From Pseudoxanthobacter soli DSM 19599 (GTDB lineage Bacteria > Pseudomonadota > Alphaproteobacteria > Rhizobiales > Segnochrobactraceae), in NCBI GenBank assembly GCA_945898215.1, contig CAMDHY010000009.1, forward strand, positions 1 through 64,000: 64,000 nucleotides of DNA, given 5' to 3'. The position numbers and the translations under genes were made by a program. Of the stretch, positions 48,587-61,948 are shown piece by piece. Position 1 is the stretch's first letter, and every line of letters begins with the position of its first letter. Below the pieces are notes generated by a model, which saw only the letters and a program-made list of their open reading frames with translations, was not told where the DNA came from and ran no database searches.

Positions 48587-50017
<1,431 letters not shown>

Positions 50018-50040
50018 TCGTCCCGTGTCTTCTGAAAGCT

Positions 50041-50646
50041 TCAGGCGGCGCGCGCGAGCGGGGCGAGCCCAAGCTCCGCCTCGCACCGCGCGATCCAGTG
50101 CCGAACCGCCAGCCGGGCCGAAAGGTCGAAGCCGCCCTCCGGCGCGAGGCGGGTATAGGCGAGAAGCGCAATGTCGGCGACCGACATATGGTCGCCGACG
50201 AGCCATGTCCGGCCCGTCAGCGCCCGTTCCAGGAAGTCGATCGCCTTCTCGCCGCGCGCCACCTTTTCGGCGTCCCGCTCGGCGGCAGATCGGCCTAGAT
50301 AGGCCATGTGGTAGCGGCAGACGGCGACATAGGGCTCGTGGCTGTACTGCTCCCAGAACAGCAACTCGTCGACCTTCGCCTGCTCGTAGGCGTCCGCCGG
50401 CAGCAGCGCGCTGCCGCGGGCGAGGTAGCGGATGATGGCGTTCGACTGGGCGAGGGGGCGGCCGTCGTCGAGCACGACGACCGGCACCTGGCCGGCCGCG
50501 TTCATCACCAGGAAGGCCGAAGTCTGCGTCTCCCCCTTCGTCATGTCGACGTCGATCCACTCATAAGGAACGCCCAGCCGGTCGGCCGTGTAGGCGACCT
50601 TCAGGCAGTTTCCAGAGTTGCGGTCGCCAAAGACGCGCATCACCAT
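50041..50646 (-). CDS. Glutathione S-transferase family protein, between gltB and gltD
   Basis: The 201-aa protein has a thioredoxin-like N-terminal domain: [40 protein letters not shown], with NSGNC in the active-site loop, and the cis-Pro [25 protein letters not shown]. An all-helical GST C-terminal domain follows ([15 protein letters not shown]). Substrate is unknown. ATG 50646 is preferred over 50640 because of GGGAGG just upstream. It sits in the gltBD operon, 23 bases before gltD and 32 bases after gltB, an arrangement that is odd for a detoxification enzyme and could reflect use of glutamate or glutathione pools. Confidence 0.86.
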
Positions 50647-50678
50647 CGCCACCTCCCTCGCACCCGTCCTGCGGCGGA

Positions 50679-55367
<4,689 letters not shown>

Positions 55368-55969: not shown

Positions 55970-57112
55970 TTATCCGATCGGCAGGATCTCCACGTCGAGG
56001 GCGCGGCCGACGAACCAGGCCGTACCGATCGCGGCGATCATCACCGCGGCCACCGGCAGCGCGGCGCGGGCGTAGAGCGGGCGGTGGGCGAGGAGGAGAA
56101 GGCCGGGCAGCAGCACCGCGACGATGGCGAGCTGGCCGAGCTCGACGCCGATGTTGAAGGCGACGAGGGCGGTGACGAGGTTCGTCGCCGGCAGGTCGAG
56201 GTCGGCCAGCACGTTGGCGAAGCCGAAGCCGTGGATCAGGCCGAAGCCGAAGGCGAGCAGCCAGAGCCGACGGGTGACGAGCGGGAAGACGAGGTTCAGC
56301 GCCGCGAGCGTGATCGTCGCGGCGATCGCCGTCTCGATCAGCACCGGCGGCAGCCGCACGACGTCGAGGGCGGCGAGCGCCAGCGTCACCGAGTGTGCGA
56401 CCGTGAAGGCGGTGACGACCTTGCAGATCGCGATCAGCGCGTCGCGGCCGCTGCCGACCGCCACCCAACGACCGCCCCGCCGCTCGACCACCGCGCCGAG
56501 CATCAGCGTGATGACGAACAGGATGTGGTCGTAGCCGATCCAGATGTGATGGGCGCCGTGCACGACGAAGCCGAGGAACAGCTTGAAACCGTCGGTGCCG
56601 GCGGCGAGCAGCGTCGCCGTCCGCTCCGATGGCGTCAGCACCAGATTGCGGGTCGCGCCGTCCGTCGAGACGGTGGCGATCAGCCGATGCTGGGCGTCGA
56701 CGTCGAACAGCAGGTCGTAGCCGATCTCGACGTCCCCGCCGGACGCGCCGCCGGCGCAGTCGGCGCGGAACGGCAACACCAGATAGGGCTCGCCGCCGCG
56801 GGTCTCGGTCATCAGCGGCGCGGGCGCGAGCGCGCACGGCTCGCCCGGCGGGCCGAGCCGGAGGCCGGCGAGCACCGTCTCGGCGAGCGCCGCCTCGCGG
56901 CCGCGCACCTCGCCCCAGGTGATCGACCCGTCGGCGTCGGTGTCGAGGCTGAGGGCGGCATCGAGGTCGCGCACCGCGAGCGAAACGGTGCCGTCGATCG
57001 CGTCCCCGGTCGTCGTGACGGTGAGGAACCCGTAGCTCTGGGTGTGCGCCGCGGCGGGGGCGGCGGCGAGCGGCGCCAGCAGCGCCAGAACAGCGAGAAG
57101 GATGCGGTTCAC
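55970..57112 (-). CDS. HupE/UreJ-2 family membrane protein with a periplasmic EF-hand
   Basis: The 380-aa protein has a signal peptide (residues 1-22, cleaved at AAAAH) and a periplasmic domain of about 150 residues. Six or so TM helices follow, with the family motifs HGAHHIWIGYDHILF and FGFGLIHGFGFANVL, whose His/Asp residues sit in the membrane. This is the HupE/UreJ-2 group, often described as hydrogenase or urease accessory metal transporters; no hydrogenase or urease gene is near. The periplasmic domain holds a canonical EF-hand loop, DTDADGSITWGE (residues 57-68), so calcium binding is likely. It overlaps the TPR gene by four bases (ATGA). Confidence 0.8.
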   Translation of the reverse strand: MNRILLAVLALLAPLAAAPAAAHTQSYGFLTVTTTGDAIDGTVSLAVRDLDAALSLDTDADGSITWGEVRGREAALAETVLAGLRLGPPGEPCALAPAPLMTETRGGEPYLVLPFRADCAGGASGGDVEIGYDLLFDVDAQHRLIATVSTDGATRNLVLTPSERTATLLAAGTDGFKLFLGFVVHGAHHIWIGYDHILFVITLMLGAVVERRGGRWVAVGSGRDALIAICKVVTAFTVAHSVTLALAALDVVRLPPVLIETAIAATITLAALNLVFPLVTRRLWLLAFGFGLIHGFGFANVLADLDLPATNLVTALVAFNIGVELGQLAIVAVLLPGLLLLAHRPLYARAALPVAAVMIAAIGTAWFVGRALDVEILPIG

Positions 57113-58323
57113 GGCGTTTCTCCCTCGATCCGGGCGACGAGCGGCAGCACGCGGCGGTCCGCGAGGCCGGTGGACGTGACGAAGGCGAGGACGGGTGCGG
57201 CGGCCTCTGGCCGGTCGGCTGCGACGGCGGCGGCGAGCACCAGGCGGGCGTCGACCTGCTCCCGCTGCACCGCCCAGTTGTCGAGGGCGAGCGCCAGCGC
57301 GCCGGCGGCGTCGTCCATCACGTCGAGGCGGAAGCGCGCCTCCTCGCGCCGGTGCACGCTGACCCCGGCGGCGTTAGCGGCGGCGAACCGCTCGTCGAGG
57401 AGTAGAGCCCAGCCGTCGAGGCGCGGATCGCTGGTGCGCTTCGCCGCCACTGCGCGGACGAGCAGGAGCGGGTCGGCGTCGCCGGCGTTCGCGAGCAGCG
57501 CCAGGGCCTCTGCCGGCCGGCCTGTGGCGACGAGGTGCTCGGCGTGGGCGGCGAGCACCGGCACGTCGGCGCCGCCTTCGGAGGCGGCGGCGAACAGGGC
57601 ATCGGCCTCGTCGTCGCGGCCGAGCCCGGCCGCGAGGTCGGCGAGCACGGCGAGCGCGAAGCGGCGCGTCGCCGGGGCGGCGGCGTCGTCGAAGGCGAGC
57701 GCCCGCTCGAGGTGGGCGAAGCCTTCGGTGCCGCGTCCCGTGAGCGCCGCCGCCCGGGCGAGGCAGGCGGCGGCCGGCAGCGGGCCGGCGGTGGGCGGGA
57801 TCATCCGGCAATCGGCCTCGGCCGCCGCCGCCTCGCCCTGCACCATGCGGACGAAGGCGCGCGTCATCCGCGCCTGGCCGTCGCGCGGGGTCTCGGCGAG
57901 GATGGCGTCGAGGTCGGCGACGGCGCCGGCGAAATCGTGCCGCGCCTGGCGGATGACGGCGCGCAGCACGCGCACCTCCCGCGGCGGCGCCGGCTCGGCC
58001 CACCACGGCGACAGCATCGCCTCGGCACGGCCATAGAGACGTGGGTCGGAGAGGGTGCGGCCGGCCTCGATCGCCGCGCGGGCGTCGGCGACGGCACCGG
58101 TGAGGTCGTTCGGTCGGCGCGGCGTCGCGGAAACGGCGGCGACCCGGCCGGGCGGTACGGTGGCGAGCACGAGGGCGTCGTCGTCGGGGCGGACGGGCTC
58201 GGCGGTCGCCGGCACCGCGCCGGTCAGGGCGACGAGCGAAACGGTGAGCGCGGCGGCGGTGAGGACGGCGGCGCGGGCGCAGCATCGCTGCGAAAATCGA
58301 CGGTGGTCTGATCGGCGGGTCAT
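57109..58323 (-). CDS. Exported TPR-repeat protein of the DUF4331/HupE module
   Basis: The 404-aa protein starts with a signal peptide with a two-Arg/His start (MTRRSDHRRFSQRCC...LTGAVPATA). It continues with helical repeats of TPR type (RAVIRQARHDFAGAVADLDAILAETP, FAHLERALAFDDAAAPATRRFALAVLADLAAGL). Function is unknown; a role as scaffold between DUF4331 and the HupE-like membrane protein is inferred from synteny. ATG 58323 has GGGGAG 9 bases upstream. The same frame is open all the way into the DUF4331 gene because that gene carries a frameshift. Confidence 0.72.
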   Translation of the reverse strand: MTRRSDHRRFSQRCCARAAVLTAAALTVSLVALTGAVPATAEPVRPDDDALVLATVPPGRVAAVSATPRRPNDLTGAVADARAAIEAGRTLSDPRLYGRAEAMLSPWWAEPAPPREVRVLRAVIRQARHDFAGAVADLDAILAETPRDGQARMTRAFVRMVQGEAAAAEADCRMIPPTAGPLPAAACLARAAALTGRGTEGFAHLERALAFDDAAAPATRRFALAVLADLAAGLGRDDEADALFAAASEGGADVPVLAAHAEHLVATGRPAEALALLANAGDADPLLLVRAVAAKRTSDPRLDGWALLLDERFAAANAAGVSVHRREEARFRLDVMDDAAGALALALDNWAVQREQVDARLVLAAAVAADRPEAAAPVLAFVTSTGLADRRVLPLVARIEGETP

Positions 58324-58393
58324 CTCGGTTGCTCCCCTCTGGCAACAGGTGAAGGCGAGGCGGGCGGCGCGAGGCCGCCCGCCGCTTTGCGCG

Positions 58394-59811
58394 TCAGTCG
58401 AGGCTGCCGGCCGGATGGCTGTGCACCCGTCCGTTCTGCGGCGTCGCGGCGTAGGGGAAGACGGTGTTGTAGGTGATGTCGTTCTGCGACACCCGGTCGA
58501 CGTCGACCTGCGAGAAGTCCGGCCCTGGACCGGCGATGCCGAGGGCGATGATGCCGATGTCGAGGACGTCGTCGCCGAAGCGGCGCCCGTTCGGCCAGCC
58601 GCCGGGGATGGTCCCGCCGTTGTCGAACGGATCCTGGACGGTGCTCTGCAGCGTGTCGCCGCCGAACCCCCGAGACGGTTGAAGCCGTCCTGGCCGGCGA
58701 GCCGCGCCGGGCCGGTGGTGAGGTCGACGCGGATGAGATCGGGGATGAAGATCGCCTCGATCAGGCCCGGGATGATCGGCGTGGCGCCGAGCAGCGCCGA
58801 CAGCTCAGGCTTGCGCGCGTACTTGGCGAAACGGGTCTTGTCGACCGTCGGCGGCGTCGCGTTGTAGCGGTCCTTGTCGCGCACCGCGACGAAGGCCTCG
58901 TTGAACAGCGGGTTGCCCTGGCGGCCGACCTGCACGCGCTTGCCGTCGATCTGGCGCGACGTCGTCGCATAGACGCCGGCGATCTTGGCGCCGCCGAGTT
59001 CCTCGAACGGGATCTCCAGCACGATGGTGTGGACGTTGAAGCCGGCCTGGCTGTCGAACGGCTTCGACGGCGTGTCGCGGTCGGCCCCGAAGGTGAAGTC
59101 GAGGTCGAAGATCGACTGGATGTCGGCATAGAAGGCGTCGTCGCGCTGGCCGGCGAAGACGCGGTAGCCGCCCTTCAGGCTGGCGATCGCCTGGCGGGTG
59201 TAGGGATCGAGGCCGGAGGGGCTCGTGGCGCCCGGCAGGGCCGGGCGGTCGCCGTCGCCGTCGATGTTGTAGAACGGCGTGACGCGGCCCTGGTTGTTGG
59301 GCGGGGCGATGCCGGTGCCGAGCACCGTGCGCTTGCCGCCGCGGTCGATGCGGGTGACGGTGTAGGTCTGGCGCAGGTTCTGGTTGGCGGCGAAAGCACC
59401 CTTCCCACCCGGCGTCAGCACGCCGAGATAGGTCTGCAGGATCGTCTTGTCGGTCTGGTACTCGACCTCGAAATCGAAGGCGTAGGTGATGTCGGGGATG
59501 CCGCTCGCCGCCGCGCCGCGGCCGAGGGCGACGTGCAGCTCGTAGTCGACCGCCGGGTCGAAGCGGTAGTTGTTGGGGCCGATGCCGGGCTCCTCGAACG
59601 GATAGACCGACATGCCGATCGTCAGATAGTCGTCCGCCGGCGCATTCGGCCGGCGGCTGACGAAGGCATAGACGTCGGTGATGTTGGCGGGATCGTCGAA
59701 GGAGATCAGCGGCGCGTCCATGTGGCTCGACGCCATGACGCGGGCGGCCGGCGCCGCCACCATCAGAGCGGCGACGGCGACCGTCGCCCCGAACAGGCAT
59801 TTGGTGATCAT
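58394..59811 (-). pseudogene. DUF4331 family secreted protein, one-base frameshift
   Basis: The N-terminal part is unmistakable DUF4331: signal peptide (to ARVMA), then SHMDAPLISFDDPANITDVYAFV, GMSVYPFEEPGIGPNNYRF, and the conserved middle up to AGQDGFNRLGG. At the C5 run 58668-58672 (G5 on the coding strand) the frame breaks. One base later it continues in another frame as FGGDTLQSTVQDPFDN, GWPNGRRFGDDVL and a typical QNGRVHSHPAGSLD end with stop at 58394. Restored length is about 472 aa. A homopolymer deletion is the simplest cause, whether a true mutation or a sequencing error. Function of the family is unknown. It heads the module with the TPR and HupE-like genes. Confidence 0.8.
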
Positions 59812-59823
59812 TGTCCACCCCTT

Positions 59824-59841
59824 TCGCGGGGATCCCCGCGA
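59824..59841. promoter_or_regulatory. Perfect 18-bp palindrome at the DUF4331 start
   Basis: TCGCGGGGATCCCCGCGA is self-complementary over all 18 bases and lies 13-30 bases upstream of the DUF4331 start codon, next to its ribosome site. It could be an operator or an RNA hairpin limiting initiation. A further 8-bp inverted pair (59879-59886 and 59934-59941) lies upstream. Confidence 0.5.
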
Positions 59842-59959
59842 CGATGTCCGGGCGAGCCGGCCAATCCCGGCTGCGCCGGCGTGAAGTTGCCCTCACGAGG
59901 CGGATATCCACGGGGAGGGGTGGCGGATGCAGGCTTCACGCGATCGTGTTCGCAACCCT

Positions 59960-60751
59960 TCAGTGCCCGCCGGGCGGCAGACAGAGGAGGGCTCGGTAGG
60001 CGCAGAGGTCGTCGACGAGCTGCTTCTCGTCGGTGAGGATGGCGGTCGTTTCCGCCGCGCCGAGCATCTGGATGACGTAGCTCTGCTCGGCGTTGCCTTG
60101 GCGGTCGATGAACGGGAACTTGAGGTTCGCGTGGTCGGCGAGGTCGGGCTTCGCGCCGATGTCGGCATTGGTGACGCTGGGCGCGTAGATCATCACGTGC
60201 GGCATCGCCATCGTGCGCACCGCCATGTCCGGCGGCCCTACCGTCCGGAACACCGGCGCCACCATGTATGACACGCCCGTCTTTCCCGGCACCGTGTAGG
60301 TGCCGTCGGCCCAGCGCCCGGCGATCTCTGCCTTTAGCGCCTCGCCGCCGAGGCCCCGCGCGCGCAGCTCCGCCGCATCCATGATCACGGTCAGATAGGT
60401 GCGTCTGCCGGCGGCGTCGTAGCAGAGCGGGATGTAGATATCGTCGCGGTCGTCGGCCATCTCCCAGACGGTGCGCTGCACGAGGCAGGCGACGCCGCTC
60501 GAGCCCTGCCGCGCCAGCCGGAAGCCGGTGCCGGGGTCGAGCAGGAAGACGGTGGCGTCGTCGCGCAGCGCCGGCGGGGCGGCGCTGAGGGCGAGGCGGA
60601 ACTCGAGGTCCGCCGGCATCGCCTCGATCACGGTACCGGCAGCGAACGCCGGCGCAGTGGCGAGGGCGAGTGCAACCAGGGTGGCGGCCGCGGCGGCCCG
60701 GGGCGCCGTGTAGCGCCCTCCATTTGAGTTAGGCACTGCGATGTCCTCCAT
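59960..60751 (-). CDS. Secreted protein of unknown function upstream of the DUF4331 gene
   Basis: The 263-aa product has a signal peptide (AAAAATLVALALATAPAFA at about residues 18-37) and a mature domain with EMADDRDDIYIPLCYDAAGRRTYLTVIMDAA, VPGKTGVSYMVAPVFRTVG and a C-terminal pair of Cys (DDLCAYRALLCLPPGGH). No family is recognised. It is on the same strand as DUF4331, 148 bases upstream, so it could belong to the same regulon. ATG 60751 is chosen. A longer start at 60874 would put an Arg/Ser-rich stretch before the signal peptide. Confidence 0.65.
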   Translation of the reverse strand: MEDIAVPNSNGGRYTAPRAAAAATLVALALATAPAFAAGTVIEAMPADLEFRLALSAAPPALRDDATVFLLDPGTGFRLARQGSSGVACLVQRTVWEMADDRDDIYIPLCYDAAGRRTYLTVIMDAAELRARGLGGEALKAEIAGRWADGTYTVPGKTGVSYMVAPVFRTVGPPDMAVRTMAMPHVMIYAPSVTNADIGAKPDLADHANLKFPFIDRQGNAEQSYVIQMLGAAETTAILTDEKQLVDDLCAYRALLCLPPGGH

Positions 60752-60902: not shown

Positions 60903-61436
60903 TCAGCCCGGCATGCGCCGGTCGTAGGCGTCCTTCAGCGCCACCCAGCCCTCCCAGAAGGCCGGCCGCGCCGTGCCGGCAACGGCCGCCGCCAGGGTGT
61001 CGAGGTGCATGTGCCAGCCGGCGGCGACCTTGAGCAGCATGTCGCGGCTCGGCAGTCGGCGGTGGGTGACGGTGAGCAGCACCTTGGCGCCGACCGGCTC
61101 GAGCTCGAAGGAAACGTCGTCGCTGCCGTTCCAGGTGAACACGAGCTTCTTCGGCGGCTCGCAGGCAATGACGCGGCTCTCCATCCGGTGCTCGTCGGCA
61201 AAACCCTCCGGCCGCTGCGACGGCACGTCGGAGAGCGTCGTGTTGCGCCAGACGAAGGTGAACGGCGCACCCGGCCGCATCTCCATGTCGCCGCTCGCGA
61301 GCCACTTCCGGCGCAGCTCGCTCTCCGTCAGATAGGCCCAGACCCGCTCGATCGGCCCCGGCAGCAGGCGCTGGATGGTGAGCGTCGTCGGCTCGGTCAG
61401 CACGCCATAGGCGTCGGGGGACGCGATCTCGTTCAT
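60903..61436 (-). CDS. SRPBCC/AHSA1 domain protein
   Basis: The 177-aa protein has the START-like/AHSA1 fold pattern: TLTIQRLLPGPIERVWAYLTESELRRKWLASGDMEMRPGAPFTFVWRN at the N-terminus, then VIACEPPKKLVFTWNG and the C-terminal helix GWHMHLDTLAAAVAG. These proteins bind hydrophobic ligands. It overlaps the ArsR gene by four bases, the classic ArsR-AHSA1 pair, and is probably repressed by it. ATG 61436 begins MNEIASPD. Confidence 0.88.
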   Translation of the reverse strand: MNEIASPDAYGVLTEPTTLTIQRLLPGPIERVWAYLTESELRRKWLASGDMEMRPGAPFTFVWRNTTLSDVPSQRPEGFADEHRMESRVIACEPPKKLVFTWNGSDDVSFELEPVGAKVLLTVTHRRLPSRDMLLKVAAGWHMHLDTLAAAVAGTARPAFWEGWVALKDAYDRRMPG

Positions 61437-61912
61437 GGCTGGTCTCCTTCGGGCGAGGGGATGTCTGAGGGGATGGGCTCTGCGAGGGTGGGGTCCGAGG
61501 GGGGCGGAACGGCGTTCGCGTCCGCCGGATCGGGCGCCCGGGTCGGGGACGGGGTCACGTTCGGGGCAGGGGCGGGCGGTGCGCCGGCCTCCTCGCGCAG
61601 GAGCCGCTCGAGGATATCGAGGCGCTCGCTCCAGAAGCGCTGGTAGAAGCCGAGCCACGCGTGGGCGCCGGCAAGCGGTCCCGGCGCCAGCCATAGCCGG
61701 TGGGTGCGGCCGGCGACGGCGCGCTGCACGAGCCCCGCCCGCTCCAGCACCCGGATGTGCTTGGACGCCGCCGCGAGCGAGATCTCGAACGGCGCCGCGA
61801 GGGCGCCCACCGTCAGCTCGCCGCCCGCCAGTGCCCGCAGCATCCGCCGCCGCGTGGCATCGCCGAGGGCATGGAAGACGGCGTCGAGCCGGGCGGGTTT
61901 ATATTCAACCAT
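61433..61912 (-). CDS. ArsR family transcriptional regulator
   Basis: The 159-aa protein has the ArsR winged HTH: ARLDAVFHALGDATRRRMLRALAGGELTVGALAAPFEISLAAASKHIRVLERAGLVQRAVAGRTHRLWL. A helical segment (FYQRFWSERLDILERLLRE) and a Pro/Ala-rich tail follow. The cysteine metal sites of ArsR/SmtB are absent, as is common in the SRPBCC-linked subgroup. ATG 61912 follows directly a promoter and lies inside an operator-like palindrome, so the mRNA is probably leaderless. It is coupled to the SRPBCC gene (ATGA). Confidence 0.9.
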   Translation of the reverse strand: MVEYKPARLDAVFHALGDATRRRMLRALAGGELTVGALAAPFEISLAAASKHIRVLERAGLVQRAVAGRTHRLWLAPGPLAGAHAWLGFYQRFWSERLDILERLLREEAGAPPAPAPNVTPSPTRAPDPADANAVPPPSDPTLAEPIPSDIPSPEGDQP

Positions 61913-61948
61913 GTGGTTGAGTATGCGCGTCGATGGTGGGACAGTCAA
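61905..61948 (-). promoter_or_regulatory. ArsR promoter and operator on the start codon
   Basis: On the minus strand TTGACT (61943-61948), 17 bases, then CATACT (61920-61925) form a promoter ending seven bases before the arsR ATG. That start codon lies in the middle of the palindrome TCAACC-ACAT-GGTTGA (61905-61920). A second dyad, AACT-N4-AGTT (61947-61958), overlaps the -35 edge. Repression by the gene's own product is inferred. Confidence 0.65.

Follow-up and report, generated by a model that had tools for sequence, protein, structure and literature searches.

What joins a secreted protein of the DUF4331 family, a tetratricopeptide repeat (TPR) protein and a HupE/UreJ-2 permease is the question raised by a leftward gene group in Pseudoxanthobacter soli DSM 19599 (assembly GCA_945898215.1, contig CAMDHY010000009.1, positions 1 to 64,000; this whole stretch of 64,000 nucleotides is referred to here as the window). 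PF14224 (DUF4331), of which the window protein is a direct member, is a family without assigned function, and no open-access paper among those searched names it. The linkage, gene replacement, N-terminal motifs and predicted folds reported here point to a system for the capture and uptake of transition metals, a function that we consider probable for the DUF4331-TPR-HupE/UreJ-2 unit. A preliminary description of this DNA had proposed a unit of four leftward genes. The DUF4331, TPR and HupE genes are indeed linked, but the gene upstream of them (59960-60751) is unrelated, and the system in the window thus consists of three genes, not four.

All three genes lie on the minus strand and encode proteins with export-type N-termini, as judged from sequence. 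The DUF4331 gene (58394..59811, stop codon TGA at 58394-58396) matches PF14224 with 201.8 bits against a cut-off of 27, the match being spread over two frames. It is followed by the gene for the exported TPR-type protein (57109..58323), whose stop overlaps the GTG start of the permease gene (55970..57112) by four bases (57109-57112). The permease matches PF13795 (HupE_UreJ_2) with 151.9 bits against a cut-off of 24.5. Both family identities and the overlap had been correctly given in the preliminary description. The designation of the middle protein needs a qualification: it is TPR-like and has an export-type N-terminus, but its best match (TPR_9, 22.1 bits) is under the Pfam cut-off of 35, unlike the TPR partners in other units, which match TPR profiles well.

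Repeated adjacency in unrelated genomes had been set beforehand as the test of this grouping, and DUF4331, TPR and HupE neighbours were found in many phyla. In a sample of 398 genomes drawn across the phylum, which included the window, full-length DUF4331 was present in 16, and 12 of these 16 carried HupE_UreJ_2 at a distance of at most 6 kb; genomes with the pair also have a TPR gene between the two. Since HupE_UreJ_2 scores above the cut-off in roughly one in four of the 398 genomes, adjacency by chance would be expected in about 1/1000 (approximately 0.1% per genome), and the observed pairing is far above chance. A pairing by accident in a single lineage is contradicted by this much wider linkage. 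A scan of a genome collection yielded 80 named loci from many phyla. In the 49 whose DUF4331 is of the signal-peptide type and is followed by 4 kb or more of sequence, a TPR neighbour occurs in 47, a HupE or NicO permease in 32 (HupE 17, NicO 15) and a TonB receptor in 16. The combination of DUF4331, TPR and HupE/UreJ-2 was seen in Pseudomonadota, Acidobacteriota, Verrucomicrobiota, Planctomycetota and Bacteroidota.

On plasmids, the window-type TPR protein was found only beside a HupE match. TPR-HupE pairs are carried by two plasmids of Lichenicola cladoniae (locus L061; NZ_CP053710.1, approximately 68.8-71.0 kb), so that the unit also occurs on extrachromosomal replicons. On a Deinococcus proteolyticus plasmid (L065:5604-8077), a related HupE permease adjoins a 407-amino-acid 'phosphoesterase' without Pfam match, which stands in the place of DUF4331 and TPR.

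The composition of the unit varies between lineages. Acidobacteriota, Planctomycetota and Marinobacterium have the order TPR - DUF4331 - HupE, often with a TonB receptor added, and Bacteroidota have DUF4331 - DUF4331 - TPR - HupE - TonB receptor; in some lineages the TPR protein is a lipoprotein. In Actinomycetota and Chloroflexota the order is DUF4331 - TPR - NicO, a nickel/cobalt permease (NicO/RcnA transporters, PF03824) holding the slot that is occupied by HupE_UreJ_2 in the window, from which NicO is absent. These NicO partners begin with HPLGNFT after the predicted signal peptide, and the N-terminal motif is present in 11 of 13. Three actinobacterial loci (L096, L113 and L137), two of them from Nocardioides, carry CbiM and an energy-coupling factor-type ATPase after the unit, with CbiQ confirmed in L113 only. 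In a tally of neighbouring Pfam families (25 listed), CbiM and NicO are the only metal-transport genes and no copper-specific family occurs. The type of TonB receptor gave no clue to the metal, as the matches were divided among siderophore, heme and B12 models, every one far below cut-off, and no ligand could be named. Among the genomic clues to function, the strongest is that two nickel/cobalt-type permease families fill the third slot.

In Gammaproteobacteria, the order is extracytoplasmic function (ECF) sigma factor - anti-sigma factor (RskA_C) - DUF4331 - Ig-like lipoprotein - TPR - HupE. The sigma/anti-sigma and Ig-like lipoprotein neighbours would suit a module for envelope stress or adhesion that has nothing to do with metals, into which a HupE-like protein was recruited for another role. 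We regard this as very unlikely, given the two nickel/cobalt-type permease families in one slot, the match to metal-binding folds and the N-terminal metal motifs described below. Concerning the history of the proposed metal-uptake unit, the DUF4331 tree groups the window protein with Acidobacteriota, Verrucomicrobiota, Planctomycetota and Marinobacterium (support 100/100), whereas the permease falls into a proteobacterial clade (support 97/96). Because the two trees place the window genes in different clades, the unit is a mosaic, and one that lineages probably exchange.

How the permease might take part in metal uptake is suggested by its predicted architecture: a signal peptide, an extracytoplasmic beta-sandwich that starts with His, a linker and a HupE_UreJ_2 membrane domain (amino acids 182-342). 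In the AlphaFold2 model (predicted local distance difference test, pLDDT, 87.8), helices are inserted between strands 2 and 3 of the extracytoplasmic beta-sandwich, and the helical membrane part comes after it. In Foldseek searches, this model matched the Ang-1 anglerase 9GCE (E 2.2e-5, probability 1.00, template modelling score 0.60 on the target) as well as zinc-binding ZrgA (8F1B, E 1.2e-5) and PA4063 (7AMX, E 2.8e-5), the latter two also with probability 1.00. The predicted residue 1 of the mature protein is His23 (AAA|HTQSYGF; codon 57044..57046), in the same place as the N-terminal His of anglerase. In the 29-row alignment on which our permease conservation values are based, the His after the predicted signal peptide is invariant (29/29), including Bacteroidota forms without the extracytoplasmic domain, and an A|H cleavage context satisfying the -3/-1 rule was present in 31 of 35 HupE relatives. 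The intramembrane motifs are HX5DH, AHS and HGxGFA; the preliminary description had noted His/Asp motifs in the membrane, and H189, D195, H196, H240 and H294 proved invariant. In detail, HX5DH comprises amino acids 189-196 (56525..56548), FTxAH amino acids 236-240 (56393..56407; F236, T237, A239 and H240 invariant in 29/29) and HGxGFA amino acids 294-299 (56216..56233; H294, G295, G297 and F298 invariant, A299 in at least 90%). The EF-hand reported in the same protein is a genuine loop of the type DxDxDGxIxxxE (DTDADGSITWGE, amino acids 57-68, 56909..56944) in the helices inserted into the extracytoplasmic domain, but it varies among relatives, some of which lack it.

The notion that all of these proteins lack known kin is not supported, since a HupE/UreJ-2 protein with the same layout was described in 2025 (PMC12537917). 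According to that report, the RbAng-1a permease (9GCE) shares with the window protein the signal peptide, the mature His1, the beta-sandwich interrupted by helices between strands 2 and 3, the linker and the PF13795 domain, and its anglerase domain binds copper (Kd 74 nM) and nickel (220 nM) via the N-terminal His. In view of the predicted model, the window permease is a new member of this anglerase-type kind. It differs from 9GCE in the EF-hand-like loop and gave no detectable match to it at the sequence level, the likeness being seen by fold search only. The neighbours differ as well: RbAng-1a is accompanied by DUF4198, indigoidine-type and PfkB proteins, with DUF4331 and TPR unmentioned in the accessible part, versus DUF4331 and TPR in the window. 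With the HupE/UreJ nickel permeases (PF04955; Rhizobium leguminosarum HupE), the window protein shares the HX5DH and HG motifs, and a short relative of it also matches PF04955. In contrast to HupE/UreJ of hydrogenase or urease operons, the window protein has an extra extracytoplasmic domain and DUF4331/TPR partners, and the genomic link of permease and hydrogenase or urease known from HupE nickel permease operons is not found in the window. As the preliminary description stated, neither enzyme is encoded nearby: the urease lies on another contig (C39), and a profile search of this genome revealed no [NiFe] hydrogenase over the cut-off. ZrgA and PA4063 (PMC9820375) resemble the extracytoplasmic domain in fold and in the periplasmic metal delivery to a permease that is proposed for it; unlike the window protein, they are free proteins serving an ATP-binding cassette transporter, with no fused permease and no DUF4331.

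The second N-terminus of interest is that of DUF4331, and it is the most telling feature of this family. Its conserved S-S-H-R-E-A-P stretch starts precisely where signal peptidase is predicted to cut, and S[S/D/H]H directly follows the predicted signal-peptide cut or the start Met in 120 of 124 DUF4331 open reading frames (ORFs), the preceding residue being Ala in 102, Met in 13, Gly in three and Ser in two. In the window, SSH (59722..59730) follows A27 at the predicted cleavage site (RVMA|SSHMDAP) and represents the predicted mature residues 1-3. The amino-terminal Cu(II)- and Ni(II)-binding (ATCUN) motif is defined as a free N-terminus of the form Xaa-Zaa-His (PMC12929937). It requires that Zaa is not Pro; the N-terminus predicted for the window protein would be SSH. 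The His is invariant in the DUF4331 alignment, and divergent proteins vary in residue 2 (SDH, SHH). These keep only Ser1 and His3, as the Xaa-Zaa-His rule predicts. With the cleavage sites being predictions, an ATCUN site for Cu(II) or Ni(II) at Ser-X-His is a strong inference. The cases preceded by Met are mostly cytoplasmic Actinoplanes-type DUF4331 proteins starting with M-SSH. A start Met followed by Ser is removed, and Met removal would give these proteins the same N-terminus as the exported forms. Actinobacterial M-SSHREAP proteins at six loci (L080, L081, L082, L084, L089 and L092) have neither a signal peptide nor TPR/permease partners and share other conserved neighbours; such proteins are a cytoplasmic branch of the DUF4331 family.

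It is also conceivable that the secreted DUF4331 protein is an enzyme or a cuproprotein, with the N-terminal His in a catalytic metal site, and that the TPR protein and the permease serve its maturation and metal loading. The conservation of the entire SSHREAP stretch plus many core residues would agree with this, as would a dedicated permease or scaffold and the confident Marinobacterium DUF4331 model (pLDDT 85.3, predicted template modelling score 0.87), which found no credible match among solved structures in Foldseek (best probability 0.08). However, neither fold nor sequence links DUF4331 to any enzyme, and Ser1-X-His3 with a variable residue 2 is more in keeping with a simple chelate than with a catalytic brace, which makes this explanation rather improbable. 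Kinship by sequence to a solved protein was considered for complement C3 and rejected (E 0.4, not credible). On the basis of the model, the DUF4331 fold looks new.

In the window, the DUF4331 gene itself is interrupted, which the preliminary description had missed. PF14224 positions 1-317 are encoded at 58717-59730 and positions 361-421 in another frame at 58439-58603; the signal of G+C content at third codon positions changes frame at approximately 58.65 kb and goes back at the TPR start. Beyond the frameshift, which lies at a run of G (58667-58671), the C-terminal part continues as FGGDTLQ...GGWPNGRRFGDDV...VFPYAATPQNGRVHSHP. The coding signal is kept on both sides of the run, which suggests that the assembly is wrong here or that the mutation is very recent. 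Read without a break, the sequence gives a 900-amino-acid ORF (57109-59811) that fuses the DUF4331 N-terminal part to the TPR protein; this ORF is an artefact of the frameshift in the five-G run, and automatic annotation of the window would call this false fusion protein.

Taking these results together, the proposed metal-uptake unit may work as follows. Where a TonB receptor is present, as in many Gram-negatives, it would import the metal, alone or as a complex, through the outer membrane. The exported DUF4331 protein, after cleavage of its signal peptide, would expose the N-terminal Ser-X-His chelate and bind the metal outside the cell membrane, with the TPR protein possibly acting as scaffold or docking partner, a role guessed from its constancy in the units. 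The metal would then pass to the N-terminal His of the anglerase-like domain of the inner-membrane permease and enter via the membrane domain with its HX5DH, AHS and HGxGFA motifs. The place of HupE is taken in Actinomycetota and Chloroflexota by NicO, whose predicted mature N-terminus is likewise a His, and in some Actinomycetota a CbiM/CbiQ/CbiO-type importer comes after the unit. The most specific form of this scheme is that DUF4331 is a new-fold carrier of Ni(II), Cu(II) or Co(II) with an ATCUN N-terminus, which together with TPR hands the ion to a His1 HupE/NicO permease, such that the mature N-termini of two proteins form a relay in an undescribed, bacteria-wide system. We propose this tentatively, at somewhat less than an even chance. 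By analogy with HupE, NicO and CbiM, divalent transition metals of the nickel/cobalt class are most likely, while copper is considered because of the ATCUN and anglerase chemistry. The window genome has a urease, which uses nickel, and, also on other contigs, B12-binding proteins, which use cobalt, in line with the nickel/cobalt reading.

As to direction, import is favoured over efflux because of the TonB receptors and CbiM-type importers in units, which are import parts. Efflux would mean that DUF4331 sequesters excess copper, nickel or cobalt in the envelope and that the HupE/NicO permease exports the ion. The NicO family does include RcnA-type exporters (an NCBIfam nickel/cobalt efflux subfamily was named below its cut-off), control by ECF sigma/anti-sigma pairs, as seen in many loci, would be apt for a stress response, and Cu(II) is held tightly by ATCUN chelates. 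Nevertheless, ZrgA and the anglerase proteins are associated with acquisition, and the HupE/UreJ members studied so far mediate nickel uptake (Brito 2010, cited in PMC12537917; PMC2667541), so that we regard such a detoxification function as unlikely.

Several observations weigh against metal capture and uptake or limit it. Besides the exporters in the NicO family, several DUF4331-TPR loci have no recognised permease, and 12 loci of cytoplasmic DUF4331 lack a TPR/permease partner. The window is devoid of the TonB receptor and the sigma/anti-sigma genes of other units, and its DUF4331 is frameshifted. A search for metal riboswitches or RNA control found nothing at the gathering level in nine related loci and chance-level matches only in the window. 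The signal-peptide cleavage sites are predictions by the -3/-1 rule, the anglerase fold also matches zinc-binding proteins such as ZrgA, which would allow for zinc, and metal binding and transport by DUF4331 and the window permease are what we infer. The preliminary suggestion of a complex for uptake or sensing of a metal or small molecule therefore holds for metal uptake (anglerase/ZrgA-type domain, NicO swap, TonB/CbiM neighbours, N-terminal motifs), but sensing and small-molecule uptake received no specific support.

The multi-gene system, the N-terminal motif of DUF4331 and the HupE/NicO exchange appear undescribed in the literature searched. Our analysis provides a testable function for a family that occurs in many phyla and is without study in that literature. 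It connects this family to a type of permease that was not recognised until 2025, and the chemistry that it predicts is specific: transfer from an N-terminal Ser-X-His to an N-terminal His. If true, there is a route for nickel, cobalt or copper in many bacteria that has so far gone unrecognised.

The secreted protein encoded at 59960-60751 was rejected as a fourth part, as none of the related units has a homologue; Pfam and PHROG gave no match. Relatives of it occur in another genome of the same order, with no DUF4331 there among the matches listed. In the window it lies beside an SRPBCC/AHSA1-like reading frame (60903-61436), and such a frame also adjoins its 63%-identical relative in that genome; because this adjacency is repeated in a second genome of the order, the two may belong together. 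The AHSA1/SRPBCC protein in turn adjoins an ArsR-family regulator, a common pair (60903-61948). On the other side of the unit, 48587-55367 encodes the glutamate synthase large subunit and a GltD-like small subunit, between which there seems to be a glutathione S-transferase-like frame.

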